From the NCBI RefSeq assembly GCF_003688895.1, contig NZ_REFV01000013.1, forward strand, positions 1 through 64,000: DNA of 64,000 bases, written 5' to 3'. Source of the stretch: Dokdonia sinensis (GTDB taxonomy: Bacteria; Bacteroidota; Bacteroidia; Flavobacteriales; Flavobacteriaceae). The notes beneath the pieces are model-generated. The model ran no database searches. It was not told the origin of the DNA and saw only the letters and a list, made by a program, of their open reading frames with translations. Both the position numbers and the translations under genes were made by a program. Positions 1,713 to 60,560 of the stretch are shown piece by piece; positions within the stretch are counted from its first letter, which is position 1, and every line of letters starts with the position of its first letter.

Positions 1713-2852
1713 TTGAAACAACTCTCCATCATCATCGTAAACTATAATGTAAGGCACTTTCTTGAGCTTTGCCTGAGTAGTGTTTACGAGGCTTTGCACA
1801 ATCTGGATGCCGAGGTGATTGTGGTGGATAATAATTCGCCAGATGATAGTTGTGCGATGGTGAAAGAGCGTTTTCCAGAAGTAATTCTCATTGAAAACAA
1901 AGACAATACAGGTTTTGCCACGGCAAACAATCAGGGCGTGGCCATTGCAAAGGGGGAATACCTTTGCATTCTCAATCCAGATACCATAGTTGCAGAAGAT
2001 ACTTTTGATAGATTATATGCATTTGTCACAAATACTGATGGCAGTTCGAGAAAATCAAAAAAAGAAATAGGTGCTATCGGCACGAGGCTTGTGGATGGTA
2101 CCGGGAAGTTTCTGCCCGAGTGCAAGCGCAACTTACCTACGCCACGTGTGGCGTTCAACAAGATTTTTGGTAACGGAAATGATTACTATGCCCGCCACGT
2201 AAAGTATACGGAAAACGGCGCGGTCCCAATTCTCGTGGGTGCTTTTATGTTTTTGAAAACTGAAATTTATAGAGAAGTCGGTGGCTTTGACGAGCAATAT
2301 TTTATGTACGGAGAAGATATTGATCTGTCGCATACGATTGAGCTCGCTGGATATAAGAACTATTACCTTGGTGAACTTCCTGTCATTCATTTTAAGGGAG
2401 AAAGCACGGCAAAGGACAGTAAATACAGGAAACGCTTTTATGGCGCAATGCGTATTTTTTTTAAGAAGCATTTGCGCACGAATATGTTCCAAGACCTTGT
2501 CGTGAGTATGGGATTGTTTGTGGCTACGCTTTCGCGAAAGCGGACTGAGCAACCTCCCCAAATCGCACCCTCAGCATATTTTATAGTGACTCAGAATAAA
2601 AATTTGCAAAAAGCGCTTTCTGAAACCCTAAGCACGAGCGTTGTCATAGTCGAGGATTTAGATAGTGTGCCCGCGGGAGCCGAAGTAATTTTTGATGCCA
2701 ATACAATGTCTTACAAGGCGGTCATTGAAAGGCTTATGGAGTATCAAGACAGATCACTTACATTTAAAATCATTCCAAAAAATAGTACTTTTGCTCTAGG
2801 CAGTAATAGCAGTGACGGACGTGGGTCTATGATTCAATTTATGGCTCTTTAA
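1713..2852 (+). CDS. Glycosyltransferase family 2 (rhamnosyltransferase-like)
   Basis: A 379-residue GT-A enzyme that probably adds a sugar to a cell-surface polysaccharide. The start is a TTG at 1713, giving MKQLSIIIVNYNVRHF, the usual first strand of GT2 enzymes. The nucleotide-binding VVDNNSPDDS follows near residues 37-46, and the acceptor-side FMYGEDIDLSHT near 198-209. Donor and acceptor cannot be read from sequence. A copy of the CGCTTTCGCGAAAGCG palindrome at 2527-2542 encodes LSRKR just after the catalytic domain, at the join to a C-terminal tail of about 100 residues that I do not recognise. Confidence 0.88.
   Translation: MKQLSIIIVNYNVRHFLELCLSSVYEALHNLDAEVIVVDNNSPDDSCAMVKERFPEVILIENKDNTGFATANNQGVAIAKGEYLCILNPDTIVAEDTFDRLYAFVTNTDGSSRKSKKEIGAIGTRLVDGTGKFLPECKRNLPTPRVAFNKIFGNGNDYYARHVKYTENGAVPILVGAFMFLKTEIYREVGGFDEQYFMYGEDIDLSHTIELAGYKNYYLGELPVIHFKGESTAKDSKYRKRFYGAMRIFFKKHLRTNMFQDLVVSMGLFVATLSRKRTEQPPQIAPSAYFIVTQNKNLQKALSETLSTSVVIVEDLDSVPAGAEVIFDANTMSYKAVIERLMEYQDRSLTFKIIPKNSTFALGSNSSDGRGSMIQFMAL
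2527..2542. repeat. Palindrome A copy, coding, frame LSRKR
   Basis: Perfect 16-mer CGCTTTCGCGAAAGCG within the glycosyltransferase at 1713-2852, at the domain-tail junction. One of only two coding copies read as LSRKR or FSRKR. Confidence 0.95.
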
Positions 2853-2932
2853 ATAAGTTATTGTCGCTTATGGATTGTTTTTATTGTTATTTTTGCAATC
2901 CAAATTAAAAAACACACTCTTAAATTACGAAT

Positions 2933-4249
2933 ATGGCAAAGTTTGAACTTAAGCTACCTAAAATGGGTGAAAGTGTTGCAGAGGCAACATTAACCTCTTG
3001 GCTCAAAGAAGTGGGTGACACCATTGAGGCAGATGAAGCAGTACTTGAGATTGCTACAGATAAGGTAGATAGTGAAGTGCCTAGCGAAGTAGATGGCGTT
3101 CTTGTAGAGAAATTATTTGAAGTAGACGATGTTGTTCAAGTAGGACAAACGATTGCTATAATAGAAATAGAAGGTGAAGATACTGGGGATGTAGCTGCTC
3201 CAGAAGTAGAAGTAAAAGAAGAAGCTCCGGCTCAAGCTGCCGCAGTTGCTCAAACGGTAACCGCAGCAAAAGATGCTGTGAGTACTCCAGTAGTGAGTAG
3301 CGAAGACCGTTTTTATTCTCCACTGGTTAAGAACATGGCTCGCGCCGAAGGTATTTCTCAAAGCGAACTAGACAGCATCGCTGGAACTGGTAAAGACGGC
3401 AGAGTTACTAAAAATGATATGCTCGCGTATCTTGAAAATAGAGGAAACGCAAAAGCAGCTCCAGCCGAAACGAAAACAACGCCACAACCACAATCACAGA
3501 CGGCAGTCTCAAAACCTGCGACCCCAGTAAGTGTAAACGGTGAAGATGAAATTATAGAGATGACCCGTATGGGGAAATTAATCTCTCATCATATGGTAGC
3601 CTCTGTGCAAACGAGTGCACACGTACAATCGTTTATCGAGGCAGATGTTACGAAGATTTGGAATTGGCGTAAAAAAGTAAAAGATAGTTTTGCAAAGCGT
3701 GAAGGAGAGAACTTAACCTTTACTCCCATATTTATGGAGGCTGTTGCAAAAGCGCTACGCGACTTCCCGATGATGAATATCTCATTAGATGGAGACCGTA
3801 TCATAAAACGTAAAAACGTAAATCTAGGAATGGCAGCTGCCCTGCCTGATGGAAACTTAATCGTTCCAGTTATTAAAAATGCAGACCAGCTCAACCTTGT
3901 TGGGATGACTAAGGCCGTAAATGATCTTGCAAACCGTGCTCGCAACGGAAAGTTAAAACCCGACGACACACAAGGTGGAACGTACACGGTAACAAATGTG
4001 GGGACTTTTGGTTCAATAATGGGAACGCCTATTATTAACCAACCACAAGTGGGGATTCTCGCGCTGGGAGCTATACGTAAAGTACCAGCAGTAATTGAAA
4101 CTCCAGATGGTGACTTTATTGGTATAAGAATGAAAATGTTCTTATCACACTCTTATGATCATAGGGTTGTAAACGGAGCACTAGGAGGACAGTTTGTAAA
4201 AGCTGTTGCAGATTATCTTGAGGCTTGGGATACTAACCGAGAGATTTAG
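2933..4249 (+). CDS. Dihydrolipoamide acyltransferase, E2 of a 2-oxoacid dehydrogenase complex
   Basis: E2 moves the acyl group from E1 to coenzyme A on a swinging lipoyl arm and forms the core of the complex. The 438 residues show one lipoyl domain with the modified lysine K44 in EIATDKVDSE and an Ala/Glu/Pro-rich linker (about 85-125). A peripheral subunit-binding domain (VKNMARAEGISQSELDSIAG, about 131-150) follows, then the catalytic domain ending in SHSYDHRVVNGALGG with the active-site His near 410. No E1 or E3 gene is nearby, so branched-chain, pyruvate or 2-oxoglutarate specificity is open; a branched-chain-type E2 is my preference. A TATTTTTG at 2888-2895 may be its -7 element. Confidence 0.92.
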   Translation: MAKFELKLPKMGESVAEATLTSWLKEVGDTIEADEAVLEIATDKVDSEVPSEVDGVLVEKLFEVDDVVQVGQTIAIIEIEGEDTGDVAAPEVEVKEEAPAQAAAVAQTVTAAKDAVSTPVVSSEDRFYSPLVKNMARAEGISQSELDSIAGTGKDGRVTKNDMLAYLENRGNAKAAPAETKTTPQPQSQTAVSKPATPVSVNGEDEIIEMTRMGKLISHHMVASVQTSAHVQSFIEADVTKIWNWRKKVKDSFAKREGENLTFTPIFMEAVAKALRDFPMMNISLDGDRIIKRKNVNLGMAAALPDGNLIVPVIKNADQLNLVGMTKAVNDLANRARNGKLKPDDTQGGTYTVTNVGTFGSIMGTPIINQPQVGILALGAIRKVPAVIETPDGDFIGIRMKMFLSHSYDHRVVNGALGGQFVKAVADYLEAWDTNREI

Positions 4250-4270
4250 ATTTTTTTGATTTAAAGAAGA

Positions 4271-4301
4271 AACCCGTATCATCAATTGTTACGGGTTTTT
4301 A
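4271..4301. terminator. Bidirectional terminator between E2 and the BLUF gene
   Basis: AACCCGTA (4271-4278) pairs with TACGGGTT (4290-4297), followed by T5 on the plus strand and preceded by an A-rich stretch. It lies between convergent genes. Confidence 0.8.
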
Positions 4302-4307
4302 TTATAA

Positions 4308-4803: not shown

Positions 4804-5454
4804 TTACTTGAGACCAGACCAGTCATATTTTTTTATGAAATCCGGCATATCGTTTATACTCCAGTGTTTTCGATTTTGATACATAATTACGGGCATTCCA
4901 ACCATGCCGCTTTTGTAACCTCCTTTTTTAAGATGGTCAAACATAAATTCACGTACCTTGTAATGCGTGTGAATGTCCAACTTGCGGTACTTATAATGAT
5001 TTTCATTAAGGAAGTTCACCAGCAATTCGCACAGAGGACAATCTTCTTCTACAAAAATGGTAAGTTCTTTTGAATCGAGGGGTCTTATGTTAACATACTC
5101 CTCTTCACCCTCACCTTTGCGACGGCTTACGGTTTGTAGTGCTTCTTCTTGAAAGGTAAAAATCTTGGTGTAGGTAGGTTCGACTCCTTTTATTGGAATA
5201 AGCGTTATCATAAGCACTTTACTGCGTGGTGGCACCTTCTTTATAGTTGGTCTATCTGCACTACGACGGAACCCTTCGCCTTGTACAAGTAGGAAAGCTT
5301 CTTGCATCTCGTCTGTATTGTTTTGAGCATAGAGATTCCAGCGTTTGGGCTGTTTTTCTTCTATGAGTTCTACGGCTGGTGGGGTTTGCGCTTTCGCGAA
5401 AGCGGATACAAACAGCAATAATATCGTTATTATGATGGGTAATCTTTTAATCAT
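4804..5454 (-). CDS. Exported thioredoxin/glutaredoxin-fold protein
   Basis: 216 residues beginning with a signal peptide (hydrophobic to about residue 22, ending FAKAQ) and a middle region rich in beta strands. The C-terminal domain starts near residue 130 and is thioredoxin-like: TIFVEEDCPLCE with C139 and C142, then GMPVIM with the cis-proline at about 188. The CPLC motif and C-terminal position suggest a periplasmic or membrane-facing redox protein. The substrate is unknown. Its start overlaps the end of the upstream gene (5447-5908) by 8 bases, so the two are translationally coupled. The end of the signal peptide is encoded by a palindrome A copy. Confidence 0.8.
   Translation of the reverse strand: MIKRLPIIITILLLFVSAFAKAQTPPAVELIEEKQPKRWNLYAQNNTDEMQEAFLLVQGEGFRRSADRPTIKKVPPRSKVLMITLIPIKGVEPTYTKIFTFQEEALQTVSRRKGEGEEEYVNIRPLDSKELTIFVEEDCPLCELLVNFLNENHYKYRKLDIHTHYKVREFMFDHLKKGGYKSGMVGMPVIMYQNRKHWSINDMPDFIKKYDWSGLK
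5389..5404. repeat. Palindrome A copy, coding, frame AFAKA, signal-peptide end
   Basis: Perfect CGCTTTCGCGAAAGCG supplying the AFAKA just before the likely cleavage site (AFAKA|Q) of the exported redox protein at 4804-5454. Confidence 0.95.
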
Positions 5455-5908
5455 CTGCTCTAAATAGTTTTAAACTTTCTACCACCGAATTTTCTGATTC
5501 AAAAAAGTGAATGTAGCGTTTCTGTTTCACTTTGCGTTTACTGCGTGGCGAGGGCATAAAAAGGCGGGCTTTTGCGCCGTCAAAGTTTATCTGATATTTT
5601 TCGTTTATATCATTATCCACGTCTAAAAAAGTAACTGTTCTCCCGGAAACCTTCCAAGTCCCACCTCCGTAAAAGTTCTCTTCGTCCTGATGGGGTAGTT
5701 TCCTAAAATTATGATATTCAAAAGTCCCGTCTAATTGCAGGGTCAGTTTCCACCAATGCTCTGACCCATCTTTAAATTTGGCTTCTTCAAGCGAATATTT
5801 ATCCACGTAGATGCCTGCGACATCTTCTATTGTGGCATTGGTTTGTGCGGTAACCGCTTTCGCGAAAGCGAACCCAAAAACGATAAAAAGGAGTAGTTGT
5901 TTTTTCAT
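5447..5908 (-). CDS. Exported lipocalin-like hypothetical protein
   Basis: 153 residues with a clear signal peptide (KKQLLLFIVFGFAFAKAVTAQ) whose end is encoded by a palindrome A copy. The mature part reads as a small beta-barrel: alternating polar and hydrophobic strands with GIYVDKYS, WWKLTLQLDGTFEY and GGGTWKVSGRTVTFLD. These resemble lipocalin-like domains common in Bacteroidota exported proteins. No catalytic residues are visible. It comes first in a two-gene minus-strand unit with the redox protein, suggesting a shared envelope function. I do not recognise a named family. Confidence 0.7.
   Translation of the reverse strand: MKKQLLLFIVFGFAFAKAVTAQTNATIEDVAGIYVDKYSLEEAKFKDGSEHWWKLTLQLDGTFEYHNFRKLPHQDEENFYGGGTWKVSGRTVTFLDVDNDINEKYQINFDGAKARLFMPSPRSKRKVKQKRYIHFFESENSVVESLKLFRADD
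5855..5870. repeat. Palindrome A copy, coding, frame AFAKA, signal-peptide end
   Basis: Perfect 16-mer supplying AFAKA at the end of the signal peptide of the 5447-5908 protein, just before VTAQ. Confidence 0.95.
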
Positions 5909-7413: not shown

Positions 7414-7414
7414 T

Positions 7415-11641: not shown

Positions 11642-13126
11642 TTAGATTACCGTAAATGTCGTTCCCTCACGCCCATCTTTCAGTTGTATGCCCAATTCTA
11701 GAAGTTCATCACGTATTTTGTCACTTGTAGCAAAGTCTTTGTTTTCACGGGCTTCTTTGCGTAATTTAATAAGCAACTCTACGGTGCCAGAAAGTTTTGA
11801 GTTGTCCGCTTTCGCGAAAGCGTCGCCATCCTCAAGACCCAGTACATCAAATACAAAAATATTTAAGGTCTCTTGCAGTGTCTTTAAGTCTGCTGCCGAA
11901 ATGTTTTCTTTTCCGTCCTTAATCAGGTGAATATACTTTACAGCTTCAAAAAGTTGCGCAATGAGCATTGGGCTATTAAAGTCATCATTCATAGTTTCGT
12001 AGCAAGAAGCTTTCCACGCAGCCACATCAAAACTAGAGGTGGTTCCTGTAGGTAAACCTTTTGCAACTTTTAGAGCTTCCATAAGTCTATAAAAGCCTTT
12101 CTCGCTCGCAACTAAAGCTGCATCGCTAAAATCCAGAATGCTGCGATAGTTTGCCTGGAGGATAAAAAATCGAGCGGCACTCGCTGCAAATCCTTTGCTC
12201 AGGTGCTTGCTATCTCCAGAGAAAATCTCGCTAGGATTAATGGAGTTTCCAGTACTCTTAGACATTTTCTGTCCATTAAGGGTAAGCATATTAGTGTGCA
12301 TCCAGTAATTTACTGGGCTTTTGCCTAGAGCAGCTTCATTCTGGGCGATTTCACACTCGTGATGGGGAAACTTTAAGTCCATACCGCCGCCGTGTATATC
12401 AAACTGTTCTCCCAGATATTTTGTGCTCATTGCAGTACATTCTAAATGCCATCCCGGAAAACCATCTCCCCAAGGGCTGGGCCAGCGCATAATATGCTGA
12501 GGTTCGGCTTTTTTCCAGAGTGCAAAGTCTTGAGGATTTTCTTTTTCGTCCTGAGCATTAAGAGCTCTAGTGTTTGCAATCATATCTTCTAGCTTTCGGC
12601 CAGAGAGTTTTCCGTACTCGTGATCTTTATTAAATTTTACAACGTCAAAATAGACAGAGCCATTTTTTTCGTAAGCATATCCCTTATCTATAATTTGCTT
12701 GATAATTTCTATTTGCTCGATGATGTGCCCCGTGGCAGTAGGCTCTATGCTAGGCGGTAGGAAGTTAAACTTGTTCAAAATATTATGAAAGTCTACCGTG
12801 TATTCTTGAACCACCTCCATAGGTTCAATTTTTTCTAGTCGTGCTTTCTTAGCAATCTTGTCTTCCCCTTGATCTCCATCATCTGTGAGGTGTCCAGCAT
12901 CTGTAATATTACGTACGTAGCGCACTTTGTAGCCTAGATGCTTGAGATATCTGAAAATCATATCAAAGCTCATAAACGTACGAACATTTCCTAAATGCAC
13001 ATTACTGTATACCGTAGGTCCACAAACATACATCCCAATATGTCCTTCGAGAATAGGAATAAATTTTTCCTTTTTTCCAGTTAGGGAATTATAAATTTTT
13101 AGTTCTTGATTTTGGTATAAAGCCAT
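11642..13126 (-). CDS. cysS: Cysteine--tRNA ligase
   Basis: 494-residue class I synthetase charging tRNA-Cys. It shows the zinc-site Cys in [16 protein letters not shown] (which also contains the HIGH-like HLGN), [14 protein letters not shown] (zinc ligands) and [10 protein letters not shown]-terminal anticodon-binding region has [17 protein letters not shown] palindrome A copy at 11807-11822 encodes AFAKA in the variable C-terminal stretch ([13 protein letters not shown]), where an insertion should be tolerated. The length is slightly long for the family, in line with such an insert. Confidence 0.96.
11807..11822. repeat. Palindrome A copy, coding, frame AFAKA
   Basis: Perfect 16-mer in cysS, in a variable stretch before the C-terminal helical domain. 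Confidence 0.95.
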
Positions 13127-13217: not shown

Positions 13218-13233
13218 CGCTTTCGCGAAAGCG
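13218..13233. repeat. Palindrome A copy, intergenic
   Basis: Perfect 16-mer extended to a 20-base perfect palindrome with TA flanks, three bases outside the folE stop codon. Confidence 0.95.
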
Positions 13234-17132: not shown

Positions 17133-17167
17133 AAAGAATTTTTATGACTGTTTTGACAGCAATGATA

Positions 17168-17182
17168 GCTTTCGCGAAAGCG
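17168..17182. repeat. Palindrome A copy, intergenic
   Basis: 15 of 16 bases (left C replaced by A) in the 59-base gap between the phosphohexomutase stop and the ABC exporter start. Confidence 0.93.
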
Positions 17183-17191: not shown

Positions 17192-18919
17192 TTAAACCCC
17201 TAGCGCAGTTTTAATGCCAGCAATGCGTTCATCCAGCCTTTCGGAAATTGTGTCATAGTCCTCAATGGCATCCAGATGCGCGTGAACACTGATGTAGAAT
17301 TTTACCTTAGGTTCCGTACCGCTAGGTCTTGCAGCAATTTTACTGCCGTCTGCCGTATAGAAAATAAGCACATTAGATTTAGGAATATGGATGTCATACG
17401 TACTGCCATCTACAAGGACGCGACCCTTTGAGCTTTGATAATCTTCCATAAAAGTCACGTCACTTCCATTGATTTCCTTCATCGGGTCCTTTCTCAAATC
17501 GGCAAGCATTTGTTTGATTTCTTCGGCACCGGATTGTCCTTTTTTCACAAGCGAAATAAGAGACTCTTTATAAAAACCGTGTTTAACATAGAGTTCTTTA
17601 AGTTTTTCAAATAACGTCTGTCCTTTTGATTTTACATCTGCCGCGAGTGTGCAGGCGAGTAGGGTAGCGGTGACCGCATCTTTATCCCGCACAAAATCGC
17701 CCACCATATACCCAAAACTTTCCTCACCACCACCTATAAAATGTTGTTGCGGGTGATCTTTAATCATTTTTGCAATCCACTTAAAACCTGTGAGTGCGGT
17801 CTTACATTCAACATCATAAGACGCGGCAAGTTCGTCCATCATAGGTGTAGAAACAATGGTCGAACCTACAAATGGGGAAGCGTGTTGGTTTTCGCTTTCG
17901 CGAAAATGTGCCAGCAAGTAATCCGTCATTAGTATCATCGTCTGGTTTCCATTAAGAATGGCCAGTTTCCCATCATCACCGCGCACGGCAACTCCAAGTC
18001 TGTCACAATCTGGATCTGTTCCTATGACGATATCGGCATTGTGCTTTTCGCCCAGTTCGAGCGCCATTTTTAAAGCAGCCGGCTCTTCTGGATTAGGAGA
18101 TTTTACCGTAGGGAAATCACCGTTAGGTTCGGCTTGTTCTTCGACAATGCGCAGGTTGCTGAAGCCTGCAGCTTTTAAGGTATCAGGAACAAGTGTAATC
18201 GAAGTTCCGTGAAGTGAAGTAAAAACAATCGACAACTCCTTTTTTGCTTCTGCCGAAACTCCCATTGCTACATTCTCAACACTTGCCTTTATAAATGCTT
18301 CGTCTACATCTTTGTCAATAAGGGTGATGAGGTCTGCGCTTTCGCGAAAGCGGATATCTGAGAAGTTAAGTGATTCTATTTCTGCTACTATGGCTTCATC
18401 TTGAGGTGGCACGAGCTGTCCTCCGTCTTCCCAATATACTTTGTAACCGTTATATTCTGGTGGGTTATGGCTGGCCGTGAGTACAATCCCGCACTGGCAG
18501 TTCAGGTGTCGCACGGCAAAGCTAAGCTCTGGGGTAGGGCGCAGGTCTGAAAAGAGATATACGTGAATCCCATTTGCCGAAAATACATCTGCAACCACCT
18601 TAGCCAGTTCTTTACTGTTGTGTCTGCAATCGTAAGCTATGGCTACCTTTACTTCCTGGTCTGGGAACTGTCCTTTTAAATAATTTGAAAGTCCTTGTGT
18701 GTTCTTTCCAAGGGTGTATTTATTAATACGATTTGTCCCAGGGCCCATAATACCGCGCATTCCACCTGTTCCAAATTCTAAGTTTTTGTAAAAACTATCT
18801 GCAAGTTCTTCTGGATTGTTTGCAATTAGTTCTTTAATTGCTGTAGTTGTTTGCTCGTCAAATGTGTCTGTGAGCCAACTGTTTGCAGCGTCTAGAATTT
18901 CGGGTTTGTGGTAGACCAT
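17192..18919 (-). CDS. Phosphoglucomutase/phosphomannomutase
   Basis: 575-residue alpha-D-phosphohexomutase. The phosphoserine loop is TASHNPPEYNGYKVYW, the metal loop GTDPDCDRLGVAV, the sugar loop GGGEESFGYMVGD and the phosphate loop RPSGTEPKVKFY. It interconverts hexose 1- and 6-phosphates, which would supply glucose 1-phosphate for the glycogen genes at 60.7 kb. It carries two palindrome A copies: 18337-18352 (RFRES) and 17893-17908 (HFRES, imperfect), both at surface-like linkers. The length and order match PGM2-type bacterial enzymes. Confidence 0.93.
   Translation of the reverse strand: MVYHKPEILDAANSWLTDTFDEQTTTAIKELIANNPEELADSFYKNLEFGTGGMRGIMGPGTNRINKYTLGKNTQGLSNYLKGQFPDQEVKVAIAYDCRHNSKELAKVVADVFSANGIHVYLFSDLRPTPELSFAVRHLNCQCGIVLTASHNPPEYNGYKVYWEDGGQLVPPQDEAIVAEIESLNFSDIRFRESADLITLIDKDVDEAFIKASVENVAMGVSAEAKKELSIVFTSLHGTSITLVPDTLKAAGFSNLRIVEEQAEPNGDFPTVKSPNPEEPAALKMALELGEKHNADIVIGTDPDCDRLGVAVRGDDGKLAILNGNQTMILMTDYLLAHFRESENQHASPFVGSTIVSTPMMDELAASYDVECKTALTGFKWIAKMIKDHPQQHFIGGGEESFGYMVGDFVRDKDAVTATLLACTLAADVKSKGQTLFEKLKELYVKHGFYKESLISLVKKGQSGAEEIKQMLADLRKDPMKEINGSDVTFMEDYQSSKGRVLVDGSTYDIHIPKSNVLIFYTADGSKIAARPSGTEPKVKFYISVHAHLDAIEDYDTISERLDERIAGIKTALGV
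17893..17908. repeat. Palindrome A copy, imperfect, coding, frame HFRES
   Basis: Core TTTCGCGAAA is exact (17896-17905) but the right arm has mutated to ATG. It lies in the phosphohexomutase gene. Confidence 0.85.
18337..18352. repeat. Palindrome A copy, coding, frame RFRES
   Basis: Perfect 16-mer in the phosphohexomutase gene, between DI and ADLITLIDKD. Confidence 0.95.
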
Positions 18920-42940: not shown

Positions 42941-43029
42941 ACGCAAGCGGGCTTACTGCTAGTTTGTTGGAGTCTATTCAAGAATTCTTTGTGAAATATC
43001 ATTTTTAATCAAGGATGTTTGGGGATTAT

Positions 43030-43044
43030 GCTTTCGCGAAAGCG
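43030..43044. repeat. Palindrome A copy, intergenic, extended
   Basis: GCTTTCGCGAAAGCG within a 28-base palindrome (43023-43050) with a single mismatched pair, the longest extension in the window. Confidence 0.95.
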
Positions 43045-45206: not shown

Positions 45207-46565
45207 GTGAAGGCTCATTTTGAAAAACATATCAGGGAGCACTTCCCGTTTCTTTTTAAAAGCAAAATTTTACTTGCCGTAAGTGGTGGGCTAGACAGTA
45301 CGGTGCTCACACACTTGTGTCATAATCTTGGGCTAGATATAGGAATTGCACATTGTAATTTTATGCTTCGGGGAGAGGAGAGTGATGGGGATGAAGCTTT
45401 TGTGCGGGAATATGCGAGTGGGCACAACATACCTTTCTACGTTAAAAGGTTTGATACTTCCGCTCCTGCCTGCCGGACAGGCAGGTTCGCGAAAGCAAAT
45501 AAAACTTCCACCCAAATTACCGCTAGAAACTTACGATATGAATGGTTCGACCATCTCCTGGACGCCGAAGGATACGACTACTTATTAACCGCGCATCACG
45601 CAAATGACAGTCTTGAAACGATGCTCATCAATATGGGGCGTGGCACGGGAATAGACGGTCTTACAGGAATTCCAGAAGTCAATGGAAAGACGGTAAGGGT
45701 GTTGTTGCCTTTTTCGCGAAAGCGTATAAAAGACTACGCCACTTCGCATAATATAGCGTGGCGAGAAGACAGAAGTAATGCCTCTGACGATTATTTGCGC
45801 AATCACTTGCGTCATCACGCGATTCCAGCATTAGAAGATGGAATTTCTAATTTCTTGCAAGGTGCCTCAAAAACACAGGAGCATCTCAAACAGGCACAAC
45901 AATTATTATCAGTTTATACTCAGGAATTAAAGGTAAAATTTACCCAACCGTATCTTCTAAATAACGTAACCGCTGGGGTAAGTATAGATATTAAAGGAAT
46001 ACAATCTCACCCTGCTCCAGAAGCTGTACTTTATGCACTCCTTAATATGTATGGTTTTACAGCTTGGGACGACATAAGTGCATTGATGGACGGGCAAACG
46101 GGAAAGCAAGTTTTTTCGGCGACGCATCGCTTGTTGAAAGACCGAACACGTTTATTGCTACTTCCCATTCAAGAAGAAAGTACTGAAGCGTATTTTTTAT
46201 GGGAAGAAAATGAAGCGCAACAAGAATTGCCCTCGGGTGTTTTGCATAAAGAAATTACCAAAAGTGATGAGGTTGCCGGGCGCAATTCAATTATTGTTGA
46301 TGAGAGTCTTTTACATTTTCCGCTAACGGTTCGCAGGTGGAAAGAGGGAGATAGTTTTCAACCTTTTGGGATGGATGGACGCAAGAAACTGAGTAAATAT
46401 TTTAAAGATGAAAAGCTATCTTTGATTGAAAAGGAGAAAATTTGGTTATTATGTGCTGGCGACGATATCGTCTGGATTATAAACCAAAGAGCAGACGACC
46501 GATTTAAGATTACAAAAAATACAACCCAACGACTACTAATTACATATAATGATACAACGCATTAA
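45207..46565 (+). CDS. tilS: tRNA(Ile)-lysidine synthase
   Basis: 452 residues starting at GTG 45207. It adds lysine to C34 of tRNA-Ile(CAU) so that it reads AUA. The PP-loop SGGLDST (26-32) begins the adenylation domain, with AHCNFMLRGEESDGDE and LLTAHHANDSLETM after it. Residues 87-93 (PACRTGR) are a 21-bp in-frame insert (45465-45485) that splits a palindrome A copy; without it the sequence would read SAFAKAN. Another A copy at 45709-45724 encodes FSRKR. The end overlaps dsbD by 17 bases. Confidence 0.94.
   Translation: MKAHFEKHIREHFPFLFKSKILLAVSGGLDSTVLTHLCHNLGLDIGIAHCNFMLRGEESDGDEAFVREYASGHNIPFYVKRFDTSAPACRTGRFAKANKTSTQITARNLRYEWFDHLLDAEGYDYLLTAHHANDSLETMLINMGRGTGIDGLTGIPEVNGKTVRVLLPFSRKRIKDYATSHNIAWREDRSNASDDYLRNHLRHHAIPALEDGISNFLQGASKTQEHLKQAQQLLSVYTQELKVKFTQPYLLNNVTAGVSIDIKGIQSHPAPEAVLYALLNMYGFTAWDDISALMDGQTGKQVFSATHRLLKDRTRLLLLPIQEESTEAYFLWEENEAQQELPSGVLHKEITKSDEVAGRNSIIVDESLLHFPLTVRRWKEGDSFQPFGMDGRKKLSKYFKDEKLSLIEKEKIWLLCAGDDIVWIINQRADDRFKITKNTTQRLLITYNDTTH
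45461..45496. repeat. Palindrome A copy interrupted by a family B palindrome
   Basis: CGCT (45461-45464) and TTCGCGAAAGC (45486-45496) are the two parts of a palindrome A. Between them lies a 21-base palindrome-like insert (45465-45485) closely related to the perfect 20-base one at 36121-36140. The insert is in frame and encodes PACRTGR. Confidence 0.88.
45709..45724. repeat. Palindrome A copy, left arm altered, coding, frame FSRKR
   Basis: CCTTTTTCGCGAAAGCG: the left arm has TTT for CGC. It lies in tilS, second copy. Confidence 0.88.
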
Positions 46566-48567: not shown

Positions 48568-50424
48568 ATGAAGCAATTTTTTGGAGTACTCGGAATATTT
48601 TTTGTTTTTGCTTTCGCGAAAGCGGACTTAAAAGCACAAGAAGCAACCTACGAAGTTTCTGAACATTACGATAAGAAAGAGGTGCAGATCGAGATGCGTG
48701 ACGGTGTAAAACTACACACCACCATCTATATGCCGAAGGATACCACAAAAGAATATCCTATCATTATGCAACGCACGCCGTATAGTTGCAGACCGTATGG
48801 TGAGGATGAATTCCGCTCTAAAATTGGGCCTAATGAATATATGATGAAAGAGGGGTATATCGTGGTGTATCAAGACGTGCGCGGTCGCTGGATGAGTGAA
48901 GGAAAGTATGATAATATGCGCGCTTTTATACCGAATAAAACGGGCGACCAAGTGGACGAAGCGAGTGATACATACGATACAATAGACTGGCTCGTGAAGA
49001 ACGTTTCAAATAATAATGGAAACGTGGGAACGTGGGGAATATCGTATCCTGGGTTTTATGCCACCTATTCACTATTGAGCGGACATCCGGCGCTAAAAGC
49101 TTCATCGCCACAAGCGTGTATAGGGGATTTCTTTTTTGACGATTTTCATCACAATGGTGCGTACCTATTGAGTTACTGGCGCGCAACGGCAGTTTTTGGA
49201 TATCAGAAAGATGCGCCTACTAAAGAAGCTTGGTATGAGTTTCCTCAATTAGATAGTGATGACCAGTTTGATTTTTTCTTAAAAACGGGTCCGCTTTCTA
49301 ATCTGGACAAATATTATGATGAAACTAATGAATTCTGGACACAATTAAAGGAGCATCCTAATTATGATGAATTCTGGCAATCGCGAGGGCTCATCCAGCA
49401 CCTAGAAAATATCAAGCCAGCAGTAATGACGGTAGGTGGATTGTATGATGCGGAGGACTTATACGGACCTTGGGAAACATATAAAAATATTGAAGCACGT
49501 AGTGATAATTACAACACCGTTGTTTTTGGCCCGTGGAGTCACGGCGACTGGGCGCGAAATAAAGACAGACAAGCTGTGGGTAATGTATATTTTGGAGATA
49601 ATATTTCAGAGTATTTCCAGAAGGACATTGAGACGGAATTTTTTAACCACTTTCTTAAAGGAGAAGGTGATGGTGATACAGAGCTTCCAGAGGCACATAT
49701 TTTTGACTCAGGAAGTAAAGAGTGGGAGTCTTTTGACACGTGGCCACCGGCAAAGCTTAAAAATCGCACTTATTTCTTAGGCGATAATAATGACCTGACC
49801 ACGACATTACCAGAAGAAAATGGCGCAGAAACGTTTGTAAGTGATCCAGCAAACCCAGTTCCTTATGCCGAAGGCAAAAAGATGGTGTTTACCCCCAGAA
49901 AATATATGAGCGACGACCAGCGATTTGCTGGAAAGCGCGATGATGTTCTCGTTTATGAGACAGATGTGTTAGAGCGTGATGTGACACTAGCAGGAGAAAT
50001 TCTCGCAAAACTTCTGGTCGAGACCACAGGCACAAGTGCAGACTGGATTGTAAAAGTAATCGATGTCTATCCAGATGACGTTCCTAATACAGAGGAGACC
50101 GAGGAAGGAATGCAAATGGCAGGATACCAGCAGATGGTGAGAAGTGAAGTGATGCGAGGACGCTTTCGCGAAAGCTTTTCTGACCCAAAACCCTTTGTAC
50201 CTAACCAGAAAACTGCTGTAAACATTAAATTACAAGATGTCCTGCATACTTTTAAGAAAGGACACAAAATAATGATACAGGTTCAGAGCACGTGGTTCCC
50301 GCTTATAGATTTAAATCCTCAATCGTATGTGGATAACATATTTGAGGCAGAGGAAAAGGACTTTACAAAGCAAACACATAGAGTGTACCACGCGTCTGAA
50401 ATTCAAGTGGGAATTTTGGACTAA
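48568..50424 (+). CDS. CocE/NonD-family hydrolase (X-prolyl peptidase-like)
   Basis: 618 residues, exported. The signal peptide ends FAFAKADLKAQ, encoded by a palindrome A copy at 48610. An alpha/beta-hydrolase core has RDGVKLHTTIYMP, YIVVYQDVRGRWMSEG, nucleophile GTWGISYPGFYA, the acid in GGLYDAEDLYGPW and the His in FGPWSHGDW. A C-terminal jelly-roll domain starts near 440 (YETDVLERDVTLAGEILAKL). Relatives include dipeptidyl peptidases and cocaine/glutaryl acylases, so the substrate is open. A second palindrome A at 50161 encodes RFRES in the jelly roll. The ATG touches the dsbD stop. Confidence 0.9.
   Translation: MKQFFGVLGIFFVFAFAKADLKAQEATYEVSEHYDKKEVQIEMRDGVKLHTTIYMPKDTTKEYPIIMQRTPYSCRPYGEDEFRSKIGPNEYMMKEGYIVVYQDVRGRWMSEGKYDNMRAFIPNKTGDQVDEASDTYDTIDWLVKNVSNNNGNVGTWGISYPGFYATYSLLSGHPALKASSPQACIGDFFFDDFHHNGAYLLSYWRATAVFGYQKDAPTKEAWYEFPQLDSDDQFDFFLKTGPLSNLDKYYDETNEFWTQLKEHPNYDEFWQSRGLIQHLENIKPAVMTVGGLYDAEDLYGPWETYKNIEARSDNYNTVVFGPWSHGDWARNKDRQAVGNVYFGDNISEYFQKDIETEFFNHFLKGEGDGDTELPEAHIFDSGSKEWESFDTWPPAKLKNRTYFLGDNNDLTTTLPEENGAETFVSDPANPVPYAEGKKMVFTPRKYMSDDQRFAGKRDDVLVYETDVLERDVTLAGEILAKLLVETTGTSADWIVKVIDVYPDDVPNTEETEEGMQMAGYQQMVRSEVMRGRFRESFSDPKPFVPNQKTAVNIKLQDVLHTFKKGHKIMIQVQSTWFPLIDLNPQSYVDNIFEAEEKDFTKQTHRVYHASEIQVGILD
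48610..48624. repeat. Palindrome A copy, coding, frame AFAKA, signal-peptide end
   Basis: 15 of 16 bases (left C replaced by T), supplying FAFAKA before the DLKAQ cleavage region of the CocE-like hydrolase. Confidence 0.94.
50161..50176. repeat. Palindrome A copy, coding, frame RFRES
   Basis: 15 of 16 bases (final G replaced by T) in the C-terminal domain of the CocE-like hydrolase. Confidence 0.94.
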
Positions 50425-50997: not shown

Positions 50998-52536
50998 ATG
51001 CTCACAAAAGTTTTTGGAAGTGCTGTTTTTGGGGTGGAGGCCACCACAATTACCGTTGAAGTTAATGTCGACAAAGGCGTAGGCTATCATCTCGTAGGAC
51101 TTCCAGACAATGCCATAAAGGAAAGTAGTTATCGTATTGCTGCCGCACTTCAAAATAATGGTTACAAAATTCCAGGAAAGAAAATCATCCTTAATATGTC
51201 TCCAGCAGACCTCCGCAAGGAAGGCTCTGCCTATGATATGACCCTTGCCATAGGTATCCTCATCGCAACAGGACAAATACAAGGTCCAGATGTAGACAAA
51301 TACATTATAATGGGCGAGTTGTCTTTAGACGGCGGGCTTCAGCCTATTAAAGGTGCGCTCCCTATTGCCATAAAGGCAAGGGAAGAAGGCTTTAAAGGCT
51401 TTATACTCCCAAAACAGAATGCAAAAGAGGCCGCAATTGTAAACGATATTGATGTTTACGGTATTGAAAATATTAGTGAGGTGATAGCTTTTTTTAAGGA
51501 GGGCACACCGCTTGAGCCCACCGTGATTGATACTCGAGAGGAGTTTTATAAAGGATTGGAACATCCAGAATTTGACTTTGCAGATGTAAAAGGGCAGGAG
51601 AGCATAAAGCGCTGTATGGAAATTGCAGCCGCAGGCGGTCACAATATTATCTTGATAGGCCCTCCAGGGAGTGGTAAAACAATGCTGAGTAAGCGATTGC
51701 CGTCTATCTTACCACCTATGTCCTTGCGAGAGGCTTTGGAGACCACAAAAATTCATAGCGTCGTAGGACGTGTAAAGGAAAACCAAGGTTTAATGAGTGA
51801 ACGTCCATTCCGATCGCCGCATCATACAATATCTGATGTCGCTTTGGTCGGTGGTGGGGCATACCCGCAACCTGGGGAAATTTCCTTGTCTCATAATGGT
51901 GTACTTTTTCTGGACGAATTACCAGAGTTTAAACGCTCCGTTCTGGAAGTAATGCGACAACCGCTGGAAGACCGAGAAGTGACTATCTCTCGCGCCAGAT
52001 TTACCGTTACATATCCCTCCAGTTTTATGCTCGTAGCGAGTATGAACCCGAGTCCGGGTGGTTATTTTAATGATCCAGATGCACCTGTTTCGAGTTCGCC
52101 GGCAGAGATGCAGCGGTATTTGAGTAAGATAAGTGGACCTTTATTGGACAGAATCGATATCCACATAGAAGTCACACCGGTCCCTTTTGAGAAACTGAGT
52201 GACGAGACAAAGGCAGAGTCTAGCGTCGAGATACGCAAGCGTGTGACCGCAGCGCGGGAAATACAGGTAGAACGCTTTCGCGAAAGCGAGACCATAAACT
52301 ACAATGCCCAGATGGGTGTAAAGCAAATCCGAAAGCATTGTGCCTTGGACGAAGCCTCCAAAGAACTCCTTAAAACGGCAATGGAACGTCTCAACCTAAG
52401 TGCGCGAGCGTATGACCGAATTCTAAAAGTAGCCCGTACCATTGCAGATATGGATGCTAGTGACAAAGTCACGGGAACTCACATCTCTGAAGCGATACAG
52501 TATCGCAGTCTGGATAGAGATGGCTGGTTGGGGTAA
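50998..52536 (+). CDS. YifB/ComM-family AAA+ ATPase (Mg chelatase-like)
   Basis: 512 residues. An N-terminal Lon-protease-like ChlI fold (about 1-165, without the catalytic Ser of Lon) is followed by an AAA+ domain with Walker A IGPPGSGKTMLSKRLPS (about 219-235), Walker B VLFLDELPEF and the PLEDREVTISRA sensor region. The C-terminal helical part ends YRSLDRDGWLG, the family signature. ComM is a helicase for branch migration in natural transformation of some bacteria. Function here is by family. A palindrome A at 52273 encodes RFRES between domains. Confidence 0.93.
   Translation: MLTKVFGSAVFGVEATTITVEVNVDKGVGYHLVGLPDNAIKESSYRIAAALQNNGYKIPGKKIILNMSPADLRKEGSAYDMTLAIGILIATGQIQGPDVDKYIIMGELSLDGGLQPIKGALPIAIKAREEGFKGFILPKQNAKEAAIVNDIDVYGIENISEVIAFFKEGTPLEPTVIDTREEFYKGLEHPEFDFADVKGQESIKRCMEIAAAGGHNIILIGPPGSGKTMLSKRLPSILPPMSLREALETTKIHSVVGRVKENQGLMSERPFRSPHHTISDVALVGGGAYPQPGEISLSHNGVLFLDELPEFKRSVLEVMRQPLEDREVTISRARFTVTYPSSFMLVASMNPSPGGYFNDPDAPVSSSPAEMQRYLSKISGPLLDRIDIHIEVTPVPFEKLSDETKAESSVEIRKRVTAAREIQVERFRESETINYNAQMGVKQIRKHCALDEASKELLKTAMERLNLSARAYDRILKVARTIADMDASDKVTGTHISEAIQYRSLDRDGWLG
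52273..52288. repeat. Palindrome A copy, coding, frame RFRES
   Basis: Perfect 16-mer in the yifB-like gene (EVERFRESETINY). Confidence 0.95.
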
Positions 52537-53807: not shown

Positions 53808-54535
53808 TTAAGGCTATAGACATAAATAGTGATGTGGGCGAAGGCATAGGCAACGAGGCGCAACTGATGCCGTATTTAACCTCCTGCAATATCGCTTGTG
53901 GCGGTCACGCAGGAGATGAAAAGACGATTGAAACTGTCATTTGTTTGGCGATGAAACATAGTGTAAAAATAGGAGCACACCCCAGTTATCCAGACCGAGC
54001 AAATTTTGGGCGTAAAGAGATAGATATTTCGGACCTGGCTTTAAAGGCTTCGATAAAGGAGCAGGTGGAGCGGGTTGCCGCTTTCGCGAAAGCGTACAAA
54101 TCCCCACTACACCACATCAAACCACACGGCGCACTTTATAATAAAGCTGCGCGAGATGAAAAGACAGCAAGGCTCATCGTCGAAACAGTGCTTGAAATAG
54201 ACGAAAATTTAGTGCTCTACGTACCTTATAAATCGGTCATAGCAACCGTGGCACAAGGAAAATTAAAAACCTTAACGGAAGGATTTGCAGACCGTGCATA
54301 TAATAAAGATTATAGCTTAGCATCTCGTACTACTGAAGGAGCGGTACTGGATGATGTTGCAGACGTCATTAAACATTGCTTCCAAATGATTTCCAATAAA
54401 CTCGTAACTATAGAAGGGCATATTTTGCCGTTTTATTTAGATACATTATGTGTGCACGGCGACAATCCTCAAGCCCTATATATTCTGGAAAAATTGACCA
54501 CAGCCTTAAAAAGGTCAAATATCAAAATCTGTTAA
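53804..54535 (+). CDS. pxpA: 5-oxoprolinase subunit A (LamB/YcsF family)
   Basis: 243 residues. With PxpB and PxpC it hydrolyses 5-oxoproline to glutamate at the cost of ATP. The start MIKAIDINSDVGEGIGNEAQ at 53804 is the conserved YcsF N-terminus and overlaps the transporter stop by 4 bases; upstream open sequence is not part of it. GGHAGDEKTI and HHIKPHGALYN are the other key blocks. A palindrome A at 54079 encodes AFAKAY in a helix. Its stop overlaps the pxpB start by 1 base. Confidence 0.93.
   Translation: MIKAIDINSDVGEGIGNEAQLMPYLTSCNIACGGHAGDEKTIETVICLAMKHSVKIGAHPSYPDRANFGRKEIDISDLALKASIKEQVERVAAFAKAYKSPLHHIKPHGALYNKAARDEKTARLIVETVLEIDENLVLYVPYKSVIATVAQGKLKTLTEGFADRAYNKDYSLASRTTEGAVLDDVADVIKHCFQMISNKLVTIEGHILPFYLDTLCVHGDNPQALYILEKLTTALKRSNIKIC
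54079..54094. repeat. Palindrome A copy, coding, frame AFAKA
   Basis: Perfect 16-mer in pxpA (VAAFAKAYKSP), just before the HHIKPHGALYN block. Confidence 0.95.
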
Positions 54536-55242: not shown

Positions 55243-56099
55243 GCGGAGCCATCACCATCTTACAACCTGGTATTTACACTACTGTTCAAGATGAGGGACG
55301 TAGGGGATATGCACATCTTGGCGTTCCAGAAAGCGGGGCTATAGATAAAAGGGCAATGCGTTTGGGCAACCAGCTTATGAATAACCCAGAAGGCTCTGCT
55401 GTGCTAGAGATTACGCTCGTCGGACCTACCATCCGGTTTGAGTCAGGAACACATTTTGTACTTACTGGGAGTCAGGTAACTGCGTTTCTTGATGAAGTTG
55501 CGATTGATGTGGGGGAGACCGCTTTCGCGAAAGCGAACCAAATACTCTCCATAAAAAAAATCCATCCAGGCATTCGAACGTATCTATGCATCGCTGGAGG
55601 ATTACAAACAGAAAAAGTACTAAATAGCCGAAGTTATTATGCACCCTTAACTCAGGCCACTGTTGTCAAAAACCAGCAAATAACGCTCGGAAAGTCGAAC
55701 TACGGAACCAGCAAGTTTACTAAGGTAAGAAGCCAAAAGGCTGTGACTGGGCTAAAAATTGGCGTTGCCACTATTCCTGTGTTCCGAGGTCCCGAGTATG
55801 AAGCTTTGACCACTGCACAGCGAGAAGAACTATTAAATACCATCTTTTCAATCTCTAAAAATTGGAATAGAATGGCGATACAAATTTTAGAACCACTTGA
55901 CAACAAGCTCAAAGCCATTAGAACATCGCCAGTACTTCCGGGTACCGTGCAATTAACGCCCAGCGGAACACAAATTATTTTATGTAACGACTGTCAGACT
56001 ACGGGCGGGTATCCACGTATTTTACAAGTTTCTAAAAAAGGAATGCAACTTCTGAGTCAAATGGGAGCTGGGAAAAGCTTAAAATGGGAATTAGTTTAA
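55239..56099 (+). CDS. pxpC: 5-oxoprolinase subunit C
   Basis: 286 residues of the KipA/allophanate-hydrolase-subunit-2 family: ITILQPGIYTTVQDEGRRGY, LGVPESGAIDKRAMRLGNQL and TSPVLPGTVQLTPSGTQIIL. It starts at a TTG (55239) overlapping the pxpB stop. A palindrome A at 55520 encodes ETAFAKANQ between two strands. The end overlaps the convergent hypothetical gene by 9 bases. Confidence 0.92.
   Translation: MSGAITILQPGIYTTVQDEGRRGYAHLGVPESGAIDKRAMRLGNQLMNNPEGSAVLEITLVGPTIRFESGTHFVLTGSQVTAFLDEVAIDVGETAFAKANQILSIKKIHPGIRTYLCIAGGLQTEKVLNSRSYYAPLTQATVVKNQQITLGKSNYGTSKFTKVRSQKAVTGLKIGVATIPVFRGPEYEALTTAQREELLNTIFSISKNWNRMAIQILEPLDNKLKAIRTSPVLPGTVQLTPSGTQIILCNDCQTTGGYPRILQVSKKGMQLLSQMGAGKSLKWELV
55520..55535. 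repeat. Palindrome A copy, coding, frame AFAKA
   Basis: Perfect 16-mer in pxpC, in the N-terminal half of the domain. Confidence 0.95.
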
Positions 56100-57042: not shown

Positions 57043-57058
57043 CGCTTTCGCGAAAACT
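57043..57058. repeat. Palindrome A copy, imperfect, intergenic
   Basis: Core TTTCGCGAAA exact (57046-57055) with the right arm altered to ACTG, after the mscL stop. Confidence 0.85.
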
Positions 57059-58694: not shown

Positions 58695-59519
58695 ATGAAA
58701 AAAATAGTTTTTATAAGCCTTTTATTGGTAACTGTATCCGTATTTGGTCAACGCAAAGGGAAGATTACTGGGAATAAAGAAGTTGTTGAGACTCGAGGTG
58801 ATTTAGATGCTTTTCACGGCATTGAGGTAGGTGATGAGCTTGAAGTTTCCATAAATCAGGGAGCTACCTCAAGTTACACGTTGCTCACAGATGAGAATCT
58901 AGTGGATAGCGTAATCTTTCAAGTAAAAGATAGCATCCTATCCATTTATACTTCAAACAAAATCACGCGCAGTAAGAAGCTCGATATTCTAGTAAACACG
59001 AAGTCGCTGGACAAAATTATGCTTTCTAACAAGGCAAAACTTTCGGCGACGTCTACAATTCGTACAGATGCTCTGATGGTTGACCTTAAGGAAGGATCGG
59101 AGCTTGAGATGGATGTGAAGGCAGATAGCCTCACGATGAGTATTTCAAATAACAGTCGCGCAGATTTTCAATTTAAAGGTGACCGACTGGAAATGAATAT
59201 GGTGGATAACGCTTTCGCGAAAGCGGACATTAACACAGCAACCTTCCATTATAACGCAACGGGACGCGTAGATGCTGAGCTTAAGGGAGTCGCAATGGCA
59301 GTCATCATAAACTCTCAAGATAGCGCGGAGTTTAAAGGAAAAGGCTTAAACACAGATGTAGCAACCATCGTAGGAAGCGGAAGCACAAATATCAACATCT
59401 TTGCAGATAAGGATGTGGATGTAGACTTAAAGGATAAAGCACAACTCTACCTCTATGGAAAACCAGAGGTAAAGGTCACAAACCTATCTGATGAGGCAGA
59501 AATCTTAAAAAGAGATTGA
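58695..59519 (+). CDS. DUF2807 (head GIN domain) exported protein
   Basis: 274 residues with signal peptide (KKIVFISLLLVTVSVFGQ) and a beta-helix-like domain of the putative auto-transporter adhesin family, seen as repeating strands with Asn/Ser turns: IEVGDELEVSINQGATSSYTL, SLDKIMLSNKAKLSA, SLTMSISNNSRADFQ, AVIINSQDSAEF. The family is uncharacterised; adhesion or surface roles were suggested by name only. A palindrome A at 59210 encodes NAFAKADI at a turn. A TACATTTG at 58672-58679 may be its -7 element. Confidence 0.82.
   Translation: MKKIVFISLLLVTVSVFGQRKGKITGNKEVVETRGDLDAFHGIEVGDELEVSINQGATSSYTLLTDENLVDSVIFQVKDSILSIYTSNKITRSKKLDILVNTKSLDKIMLSNKAKLSATSTIRTDALMVDLKEGSELEMDVKADSLTMSISNNSRADFQFKGDRLEMNMVDNAFAKADINTATFHYNATGRVDAELKGVAMAVIINSQDSAEFKGKGLNTDVATIVGSGSTNINIFADKDVDVDLKDKAQLYLYGKPEVKVTNLSDEAEILKRD
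59210..59225. repeat. Palindrome A copy, coding, frame AFAKA
   Basis: Perfect 16-mer in the DUF2807 gene. Confidence 0.95.
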
Positions 59520-59573: not shown

Positions 59574-59588
59574 CAATTATAGGAATTC

Positions 59589-59981
59589 TTACTTTTTAAA
59601 ATCTATACTGAGCGAATTTACACAATAGCGCTGTCCGGTATCAGTAGGCCCGTCGTCAAAAACGTGACCCAAATGTGAACCGCAATTAGCACATAAAATT
59701 TCCGTACGAACCATACCTAGAGTTCTGTCTCGCACATACTCTACAGTTCCCGGAATAGATTTGTCAAAGCTGGGCCACCCGCAACCACTATCAAACTTTG
59801 TCGTGCTTTTAAACAATTGAGCGTCACAAGCACCACAATGATAGGCGCCATCTTCCTTGTGTAAATTGTATGTTCCAGTAAAAGGACGCTCCGTACCTTT
59901 CTCTCTAAGGATGTGATACTTCTCTGGCCCTAATTCCTTGAGCCATTCTTCTTCTGTTTTTTCTACGGGGTACCTTTTCAT
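59589..59981 (-). CDS. msrB: Peptide methionine-(R)-S-oxide reductase, cytoplasmic
   Basis: 130 residues from MKRYPVEKTEEEW at 59981. It reduces methionine-R-sulfoxide in proteins. The zinc pairs CGACD and CANCG, CGWPSFDKSIPG and the catalytic Cys in RYCVNSLSIDF are present. An open extension into the upstream gene is not used. There is no signal peptide. It starts one base after the stop of the exported paralogue, so they are co-transcribed. Confidence 0.93.
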   Translation of the reverse strand: MKRYPVEKTEEEWLKELGPEKYHILREKGTERPFTGTYNLHKEDGAYHCGACDAQLFKSTTKFDSGCGWPSFDKSIPGTVEYVRDRTLGMVRTEILCANCGSHLGHVFDDGPTDTGQRYCVNSLSIDFKK

Positions 59982-59982
59982 A

Positions 59983-60465
59983 TTATTCTGATTTTTCGGG
60001 AACAAAGATGAGCGCATCCCCATTAATACAATGTCTTTTACCAGTAGTCGCTCGTGGCCCATCGTCAAAAACGTGCCCCAAATGCCCACCACAAGTCGCA
60101 CAATGCTCCTCATTGCGCGTGTAGCCTAGTTTATTGTCAGTACCGTAAGCTACGTTTCCTTCAATAGGGCGGTCAAAACTAGGCCATCCAGTACCACTAT
60201 TAAATTTGTGCTCTGTTTTAAAGAGTGGCGTGCCACATCCCGCACATTTAAAGGTGCCAGGCTCCTTTATATTGTTCAATTCGCTAGAAAATGGACGCTC
60301 TGTTCCCGCTTCTCTTAGGATATAAAATTGTTCAGCCGTGAGTTCTGCTTTCCACTCGGCTTCTGTTTTTTGAACAGGATAATCTACTTTTTCAGTTTCT
60401 TGGGCATTGCTTTTGCAACTTTGGAGAAGTCCTATAAAGGCAAATGCCAGTACTATCTTTTTCAT
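59983..60465 (-). CDS. Peptide methionine-(R)-S-oxide reductase, lipoprotein form
   Basis: 160 residues with a lipoprotein-like signal (FAFIGLLQSCKSNAQ) and an MsrB domain: CAGCGTPLF, GTGWPSFDRPI, CATCGGHLGHVFDDGP and the catalytic Cys in RHCINGDAL. It would repair oxidised envelope proteins. Together with the cytoplasmic copy it covers both compartments. The pair probably arose by duplication with gain of a signal. The electron donor for the exported form is unknown; dsbD lies elsewhere in the window. Confidence 0.9.
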   Translation of the reverse strand: MKKIVLAFAFIGLLQSCKSNAQETEKVDYPVQKTEAEWKAELTAEQFYILREAGTERPFSSELNNIKEPGTFKCAGCGTPLFKTEHKFNSGTGWPSFDRPIEGNVAYGTDNKLGYTRNEEHCATCGGHLGHVFDDGPRATTGKRHCINGDALIFVPEKSE

Positions 60466-60544
60466 AATTTGATTTTGTATAAAATTAAACGTTAATCTGG
60501 CAATAGGTCGTTAAAGTCAAGCTAAAATGACAGGATTATAGGTA

Positions 60545-60560
60545 CGCTTTCGCGAAAGCG
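60545..60560. repeat. Palindrome A copy, intergenic
   Basis: Perfect 16-mer, 20 bases with TA flanks, between the divergent msrB and glgA units. Confidence 0.95.

Follow-up and report, generated by a model that had tools for sequence, protein, structure and literature searches.

A 16-bp palindrome with patterned arms recurs evenly through Dokdonia genomes and may act as a self-DNA signal

A 64,000-nt stretch of Dokdonia sinensis DNA (contig NZ_REFV01000013.1; hereafter the window) carries 25 copies of a dispersed palindrome with the core TTTCGCGAAA. We find that the site is larger than a preliminary description of this DNA had said, comprising a 16-bp palindrome and, on either side of it, an arm of about 25 nt. 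This composite is almost certainly a selected DNA site. The explanation that we favor, with a probability of about 0.36, is that it may be a self-DNA signal for uptake and/or recombination, similar to the uptake signal sequences (USS) of Pasteurellaceae and the DNA uptake sequences (DUS) of Neisseriaceae. A putative trans-acting factor would read the palindrome CGCTTTCGCGAAAGCG between the two patterned arms. Literature searches for such a site in Dokdonia or Flavobacteria returned no description of it and no such signal for Bacteroidota, and the 14-mer GCTTTCGCGAAAGC was not found in the literature searched.

All 25 cores lie where the preliminary description had placed them, 22 of them within the 14-mer as counted there, and the 16-bp palindrome is complete at 17 of the 25. 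A third-order Markov model predicts 0.10 copies of the 10-mer core in the window, and the source genome (G000; 3,647,482 bases in 43 contigs) contains 857 exact 14-mers, so the abundance is well above the Markov expectation. The reversed control word occurs 0 times, and the site thereby shows the strong genome-wide over-representation of USS and DUS. In a 400-kb sample, TTTCGCGAAA was the commonest of all 10-mers (117 copies). When a copy carries a single mismatch, the changed base is usually the outermost one (46/62). ORF mapping (ORF, open reading frame) bears out the earlier division into 19 genic copies and 6 in gaps, as well as the reading frames of the genic ones: AFAKA in 10, RFRES in 7 and LSRKR in 2. 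The ORFs with copies include housekeeping genes (CysS, Ffh, ThrA, TilS, phosphoglucomutase/phosphomannomutase (PGM/PMM) and an Mg-chelatase family member). The flanks vary from copy to copy, and the earlier impression that many copies extend to TTACGCTTTCGCGAAAGCGTAA was overstated: the extension is exact in only 2 of 25 (23350 and 38551).

The copies are spaced far more evenly than chance predicts. The coefficient of variation (CV) of gap length was 0.60 in G000, 0.43 in G321, 0.52 in G298 and 0.54 in G306, compared to about 0.99 for random placement, and 0.50 in G301. Variance-to-mean ratios in 20-kb bins were 0.42 (G000), 0.14 (G321), 0.42 (G298), 0.08 (G306), 0.39 (G301) and 0.64 (G484). 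Only 4% of G000 gaps are shorter than 1 kb, where 26% are expected, and gaps above twice the mean length are rare. When copies in one stretch each of G000, G321 and G298 were placed at random within their own class, coding or intergenic, the observed evenness was never reached in 2,000 draws each. Even spacing is also a property of USS (Karlin et al., PMC1939737), and here it would give each piece of several kb at least one site.

Such regularity could also belong to a chromosome organizer, in which a horizontally acquired nucleoid or loop-anchor protein would use the palindrome as its binding site and require an anchor at intervals of a few kb. The very even spacing with few gaps below 1 kb fits this idea, as do the 4-10 cores per 20 kb at 20 of 20 places sampled on a complete chromosome and the lack of preference for convergent gene ends. 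However, the most obvious family, ParB, offers no candidate (11 of 13 genomes rich in the site have just one ParB_N match; G306 and G310 have two, the second with counterparts in poor genomes), and an organizer leaves the strand-biased 3-nt arms and the phage copies described below unexplained. We consider an organizer unlikely, but a serious contender.

Among 299 copies mapped against ORFs, 179 lie inside and 120 outside; these ORFs were called mechanically at 80 codons or more and cover 87-91% of the sequence. Of the coding copies, 33 are within 100 nt of an ORF start and 13 within 100 nt of an ORF end. In 10 of the 12 genome-and-orientation classes, intergenic copies numbered 0.40-1.68 per kb, compared to 0.10-0.23 in ORFs; the other two, small classes of G306, had 0. 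No preference for convergent gene ends was seen among the copies. The higher intergenic density, together with the ability of the palindrome to form a hairpin, would suit a role in RNA as a bidirectional terminator or processing hairpin. Yet most copies are within ORFs, convergent gaps are not favored, Rfam gave no match in the window, and the even spacing would go unexplained, making an RNA-level role highly improbable.

Two local departures from the usual pattern were seen. In G301:C1, the stretches at 2.38 and 2.55 Mb have the usual number of cores, yet only 2/6 and 1/5 of the cores are in 14-mers; these are small numbers, and the site is perhaps locally relaxed or different. An MmeI-like restriction-modification protein (G000:C1:230098-232833) lies inside an 8-kb element-free gap of low G+C. 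The ten proteins scanned from long gaps include this one, curli repeats and GH109. Known uptake sequences are scarce in recently acquired DNA; here these gap proteins stand against the copies on phage contigs and islands described below.

We asked how individual copies arose by aligning them with relatives. One copy (38548..38563) is in the RFRES frame at position 558 of the aspartokinase-homoserine dehydrogenase ThrA (ORF 37721-40228, minus strand) and is one of the two exact 22-mers. This ThrA has its nearest relatives in Dokdonia. Its core is identical letter for letter in 10/10 Dokdonia rows, two of which deviate at the outer palindrome base, while the codons beside it vary. All 14 outgroup rows lack the core and align without gaps. 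Another (27343..27358) is in the AFAKA frame of ffh (ORF 26819-28147, plus strand). There, 8 of 11 Dokdonia rows have the core, and most Dokdonia read IAFAKA where many other genera read IAHAKA at the same place, with no change in length; G321, which is rich in the site elsewhere, is without the core here. Since outgroup ThrA and Ffh align gap-free, the copies at these two sites arose by base substitution and not by insertion. At ThrA 98 (39929..39944, AFAKA frame), the core is in the source genome only and in 0/16 aligned Dokdonia loci; the relative L185 spells AFAKA there with other codons. The comparison with these 16 loci covered three window sites, as the named Dokdonia loci had poor synteny with the window, and some of its loci represent the same genome twice.

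When named Dokdonia loci were compared among themselves, aligned cores were perfect in 100 of 148 comparisons, which reuse sites across five references and are not independent, versus 8% of 11,908 control words. Substitution origin at the two outgroup-compared sites and conservation of cores are both properties of the known uptake sequences: USS evolve by point mutation and have gaps at a genomic island (PMC7811141), and DUS are highly conserved where the core genome is permissive (PMC2397512).

The preliminary description had left the choice between a selected site and a self-spreading micro-element. The invariant ThrA core, the retention of aligned cores and the even spacing argue for selection, and the gap-free alignments at two sites argue against a micro-element. 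It had also reasoned that AFAKA or RFRES in distant orthologues would mean protein conservation; other aligned genera have neither at those codons. Repetitive extragenic palindromic (REP) sequences, miniature inverted-repeat transposable elements (MITEs) and Rickettsia palindromic elements are dispersed palindromes within and between genes, and the present copies resemble them in being dispersed in genes and gaps and in using all three frames. They differ in that neither ThrA 558 nor Ffh, the only two sites tested, shows a length change, that short gaps are avoided and that the flanks are unlike between copies. We therefore give a self-spreading insertion almost no credence.

Although the flanks are not a fixed sequence, they follow a pattern when averaged over copies; a full composite site extends, for example, over 27318..27383, the palindrome with about 25 nt to its left and right. 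In 141 copies of G000 (282 arms), only about 3-13% of the bases 10-26 positions 3' of the centre are G, compared to a background of 20%. On the 5' side it is C that is depleted, and the depletion reaches about ±26 and, weakly, about 36. G-poor arms are likewise present in G321, G298 and G306 and in intergenic copies. In addition, A+C peaks at every third base from the centre (11, 14, 17 and so on). By shuffling of 24 positions, this rhythm was significant in 75 strictly intergenic copies (A+C, p=0.0004; T, p=0.0006; A, p=0.014). It was also significant in copies outside six-frame open frames of 60 codons or more, both in Dokdonia (79 copies, p=0.0086) and in G321 (23 copies, p=0.0004), with the A+C phase alike in the two. 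With five genomes pooled, it was reached in 0 of 5,000 shuffles for intergenic copies (104) and for AFAKA-frame copies (127). Because non-coding copies have the rhythm, codon structure is not its sole source, though coding may contribute.

The arms are not complementary to one another beyond what composition predicts (0.350 observed, 0.351 expected), ruling out a hairpin extended by the arms. RecA-type filaments hold 3 nt per subunit, and RecA prefers T/G-rich DNA. The 3-nt rhythm therefore suggests a RecA-type filament. Under our favored explanation, the palindrome would be bound first, and a RecA-type filament might then form on the T/G-rich strand of an arm, a step that we propose more tentatively.

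The site is found throughout Dokdonia and is rare elsewhere. The 14-mer occurs 369-905 times in each of 17/17 other genomes of the genus. At the level of loci, the core is present in 10/10 from Dokdonia (3-9 copies) and in 0/16 others (8 Leeuwenhoekiella, 4 Algibacter and 4 less defined). Among 397 genomes of the family (237 genera), in which Dokdonia was represented by 2 genomes, the rich ones were Dokdonia (857 and 903 copies) and two distant genera, g100 (578, 664 and 609) and g263 (408), and the remainder had 0-19. A draw of 296 genomes from the order yielded no further rich one (maximum, 6 copies). Within the family set, only three separate lineages are thus rich in the site. When 46 genomes were placed on a tree of one gene, ffh, three changes were required to explain the rich ones; well-supported branches force this number, with the bootstrap not settled. 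The simplest inference is that the reader spread horizontally among these lineages, although a single gain of the site with later losses could also account for the pattern. Presence in three separate lineages makes a clean gene-content search for the reader possible. Just above the family background are G384 and G578 (g163), with 16 and 19 copies, and G359 (g138), with 17, perhaps because the site is just being gained there or is almost lost.

The site also occurs on mobile DNA. We examined 133 viral 14-mer sites among the matches listed. Arms with 9% G or less were present at 25 of them, several from the same or related contigs, and 108 were without such arms; with a stricter pattern for the full site, 2 viral stretches matched. 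Ten ORFs beside viral sites comprised 2 of a phage transposase family, which we read as Mu-like, 2 portal proteins, 1 baseplate protein, 1 primase, 3 of unknown families and 1 unmatched. A copper-resistance island in G102, alignable in G507, G394, G386, G408, G626 and G323, bears the site as well. Its homologous sites were perfect in 11 of 16 cases, compared to 25% of 3,187 control words, in stretches chosen for holding the motif. The island and phage copies look like either a donor signature or selection on any resident DNA. DNA that came through such hosts also bears the site as a tag, which could be used to trace islands and phages between genera.

A 20-kb copper-resistance stretch is 99.97% identical in two genera (L212 of G102 and L312 of G507), which points to a very recent transfer between them. 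Its genes encode CusA/CusC-like efflux proteins, a multicopper oxidase, a P-type ATPase and a CusB-like protein.

Copies on resident phages and islands would be expected if the site were a Chi-like self mark, at which a nuclease/recombination machine stops degrading or loads RecA. G-poor-armed copies are present in phage contigs and in the copper-resistance island, and the arms are T/G-rich on their 5' side in triplets, matching the preference of RecA. The density is also similar to that of Chi, with a mean gap of 5.1 kb in an E. coli sample and 2.8-5.8 kb here, and a T/G-rich strand lies beside the site. AddAB-like nuclease (PDDEXK_1) matches were found in 32/32 genomes, but rich and poor alike, so that AddAB presence does not track the motif. 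RecC was found in 0/36 genomes. Chi is a short, non-palindromic, single-strand motif, unlike a 16-bp palindrome with arms, and in 300 kb of E. coli it is unevenly spaced (CV 1.30 with both strands counted, 1.17 for the commoner one). Taken together, we judge a Chi-like mark rather unlikely.

Transfer of AddAB between the rich lineages was considered and rejected, as neither the AddB nor the AddA tree gave a clear sign of it. In the AddB tree, the rich rows need two changes, which are forced, and G484 groups with the poor genome G446. In the AddA tree, the grouping of G484 and G446 with Dokdonia lacks firm support, and one row (G681b) is a doubtful long branch. In a separate observation, the AddB neighborhoods of G321 (L359) and G533 (L362) contain no AddA-sized frame, unlike those of the other genera compared, and AddA may be elsewhere or lost in these two.

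Palindromes are also read by ParB-type proteins. The parS and Noc-binding sites are palindromes of the 16-bp class with TTTC...GAAA halves. The Dokdonia site differs in having a centre 2 bp shorter, in its hundreds of evenly spread copies and in hosts with mostly a single ParB_N protein. A second ParB/Noc-like protein was discarded as a reader: beyond the rich genomes with one match, G306 and G310 have two, the second being a 616-aa protein with counterparts in poor genomes, and five poor genomes have two or three. Searching with what we take to be the canonical parS sequence (ACGT centre required, up to 3 mismatches), we found none in samples of G000, G321 and G306 and one 3-mismatch match in G298. 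Around the ParB gene of the source genome (G000:C1:241624-242523), the 400-kb surrounding stretch likewise held no canonical parS by this definition, and the Dokdonia centromere site may be different or elsewhere.

A third class of palindrome is represented by HIP1 of cyanobacteria (GCGATCGC), which the preliminary description had named as a parallel beside the Rickettsia elements; each of the two fails a test. If the site were a methylation-linked iterated palindrome of this kind, its genome-wide occurrence would be expected, and the variability of its outermost bases has a counterpart in the outermost-base bias reported for HIP1 (PMC4390886). Some rich genomes also encode a methyltransferase of PF00145 (G000, G303, G311, G312, G321 and G681) or PF01555 (G321). 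However, the HIP1 octamer is unrelated in sequence, and the Dokdonia site is twice as long and has arms that methylation leaves unexplained. Of the two methyltransferase classes searched, PF01555 was over the cut-off in 0/12 Dokdonia, and PF00145 was missing from 7/11 Dokdonia, G533 and G484. Their presence is not consistent with the motif, and both were dropped as readers. We regard the HIP1-like explanation as very unlikely.

How well, then, does a self-DNA signal account for the data? Two families, the Pasteurellaceae and the Neisseriaceae, are known to prefer a short motif in DNA uptake (PMC7811141). The Dokdonia site resembles USS and DUS in its hundreds to thousands of copies, in both coding and intergenic DNA, in its origin by substitution and in its conservation at tolerant places, and it resembles USS in its even spacing and extended flanking motif. 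It differs in its lower density, in flanks that are strand-biased with a 3-nt rhythm instead of AT-rich tracts, and in its occurrence in phage contigs and islands. A site so long, palindromic, regular and patterned in threes suggests a way of reading that the excerpts of the literature consulted do not describe for USS or DUS.

Several observations weigh against this explanation. Known USS and DUS are not palindromes, whereas the Dokdonia site is a perfect 16-bp palindrome; this form, like the phage copies, speaks against a plain uptake signal. Between related phage contigs, the core recurs at homologous positions (21 of 30 pairs, many of them reciprocal and from contigs chosen for carrying the motif, compared to 29% of 2,989 control words), which is unpredicted by an uptake signal alone. 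If a double-stranded surface receptor were the reader, a 10-11 bp rhythm would be expected; it is nil in Dokdonia but not nil in G321 (power 0.55, compared to 2.20 for period 3). The 3-nt rhythm itself is not uniform: neither C nor G reached significance by itself in the first test of 75 intergenic copies, the phase was shifted in 46 RFRES-frame copies (p=0.009), and no rhythm was detected in 60 LSRKR-frame copies (p=0.21; five genomes pooled in both cases). G484 has weaker arms and less regular spacing (CV 0.76). Finally, profile searches with ParB_N, RecC, PF01555, PDDEXK_1/AddAB and PF00145 found no reader.

If the self-DNA signal is nonetheless correct, its reader would have moved horizontally among Flavobacteriaceae lineages. 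We suggest, with less confidence, that a mobile reader in at least three of these lineages could constitute a genome-formatting system, in which a landmark of about 66 bp arises every few kb by point mutation and a two-step code distinguishes self from foreign DNA, the palindrome being read as duplex and the triplet-phased arms as single strands, with a RecA-like filament following. Such a system would also mark phages and islands residing in the chromosome.

The remaining window copies, to which no strand is assigned, are as follows. In the AFAKA frame are 5389..5404 (codon 20 of 216; ORF 4804-5454, minus), 5855..5870 (codon 16 of 153; ORF 5447-5908, minus), 11807..11822 (cysteinyl-tRNA synthetase, ORF 11642-13126, minus), 34227..34242 (lipase/hydrolase, codon 13 of 477; ORF 32838-34271, minus), 54079..54094 (LamB/YcsF, ORF 53672-54535, plus), 55520..55535 (CT_A_B carboxyltransferase domain, ORF 55239-56099, plus) and 59210..59225 (DUF2807, ORF 58695-59519, plus). 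An X-Pro peptidase-like ORF (48568-50424, plus) holds an AFAKA copy at codon 17 of 618 (48609..48624) and an RFRES copy (50161..50176), each with one outer base deviating.

The PGM/PMM ORF (17192-18919, minus) has two RFRES copies, 17893..17908, with its right half altered, and 18337..18352. The TonB-dependent receptor-like ORF (21029-23524, minus) also has two in this frame, 22315..22330, in which one outer base deviates, and 23347..23362, the other exact 22-mer. A further RFRES copy (52273..52288) is in the Mg-chelatase-family ORF 50998-52536 (plus), which we take to be ComM-like. The two LSRKR copies are in a glycosyltransferase (2527..2542; ORF 1713-2852, plus) and in TilS (45709..45724, left half altered; ORF 45207-46565, plus). 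Intergenic copies lie at 13218..13233, adjoining ORF 13236-13919, at 17167..17182 and 43029..43044, each with one outer base deviating, at 57043..57058, with an altered right half, and at 30642..30657 and 60545..60560.

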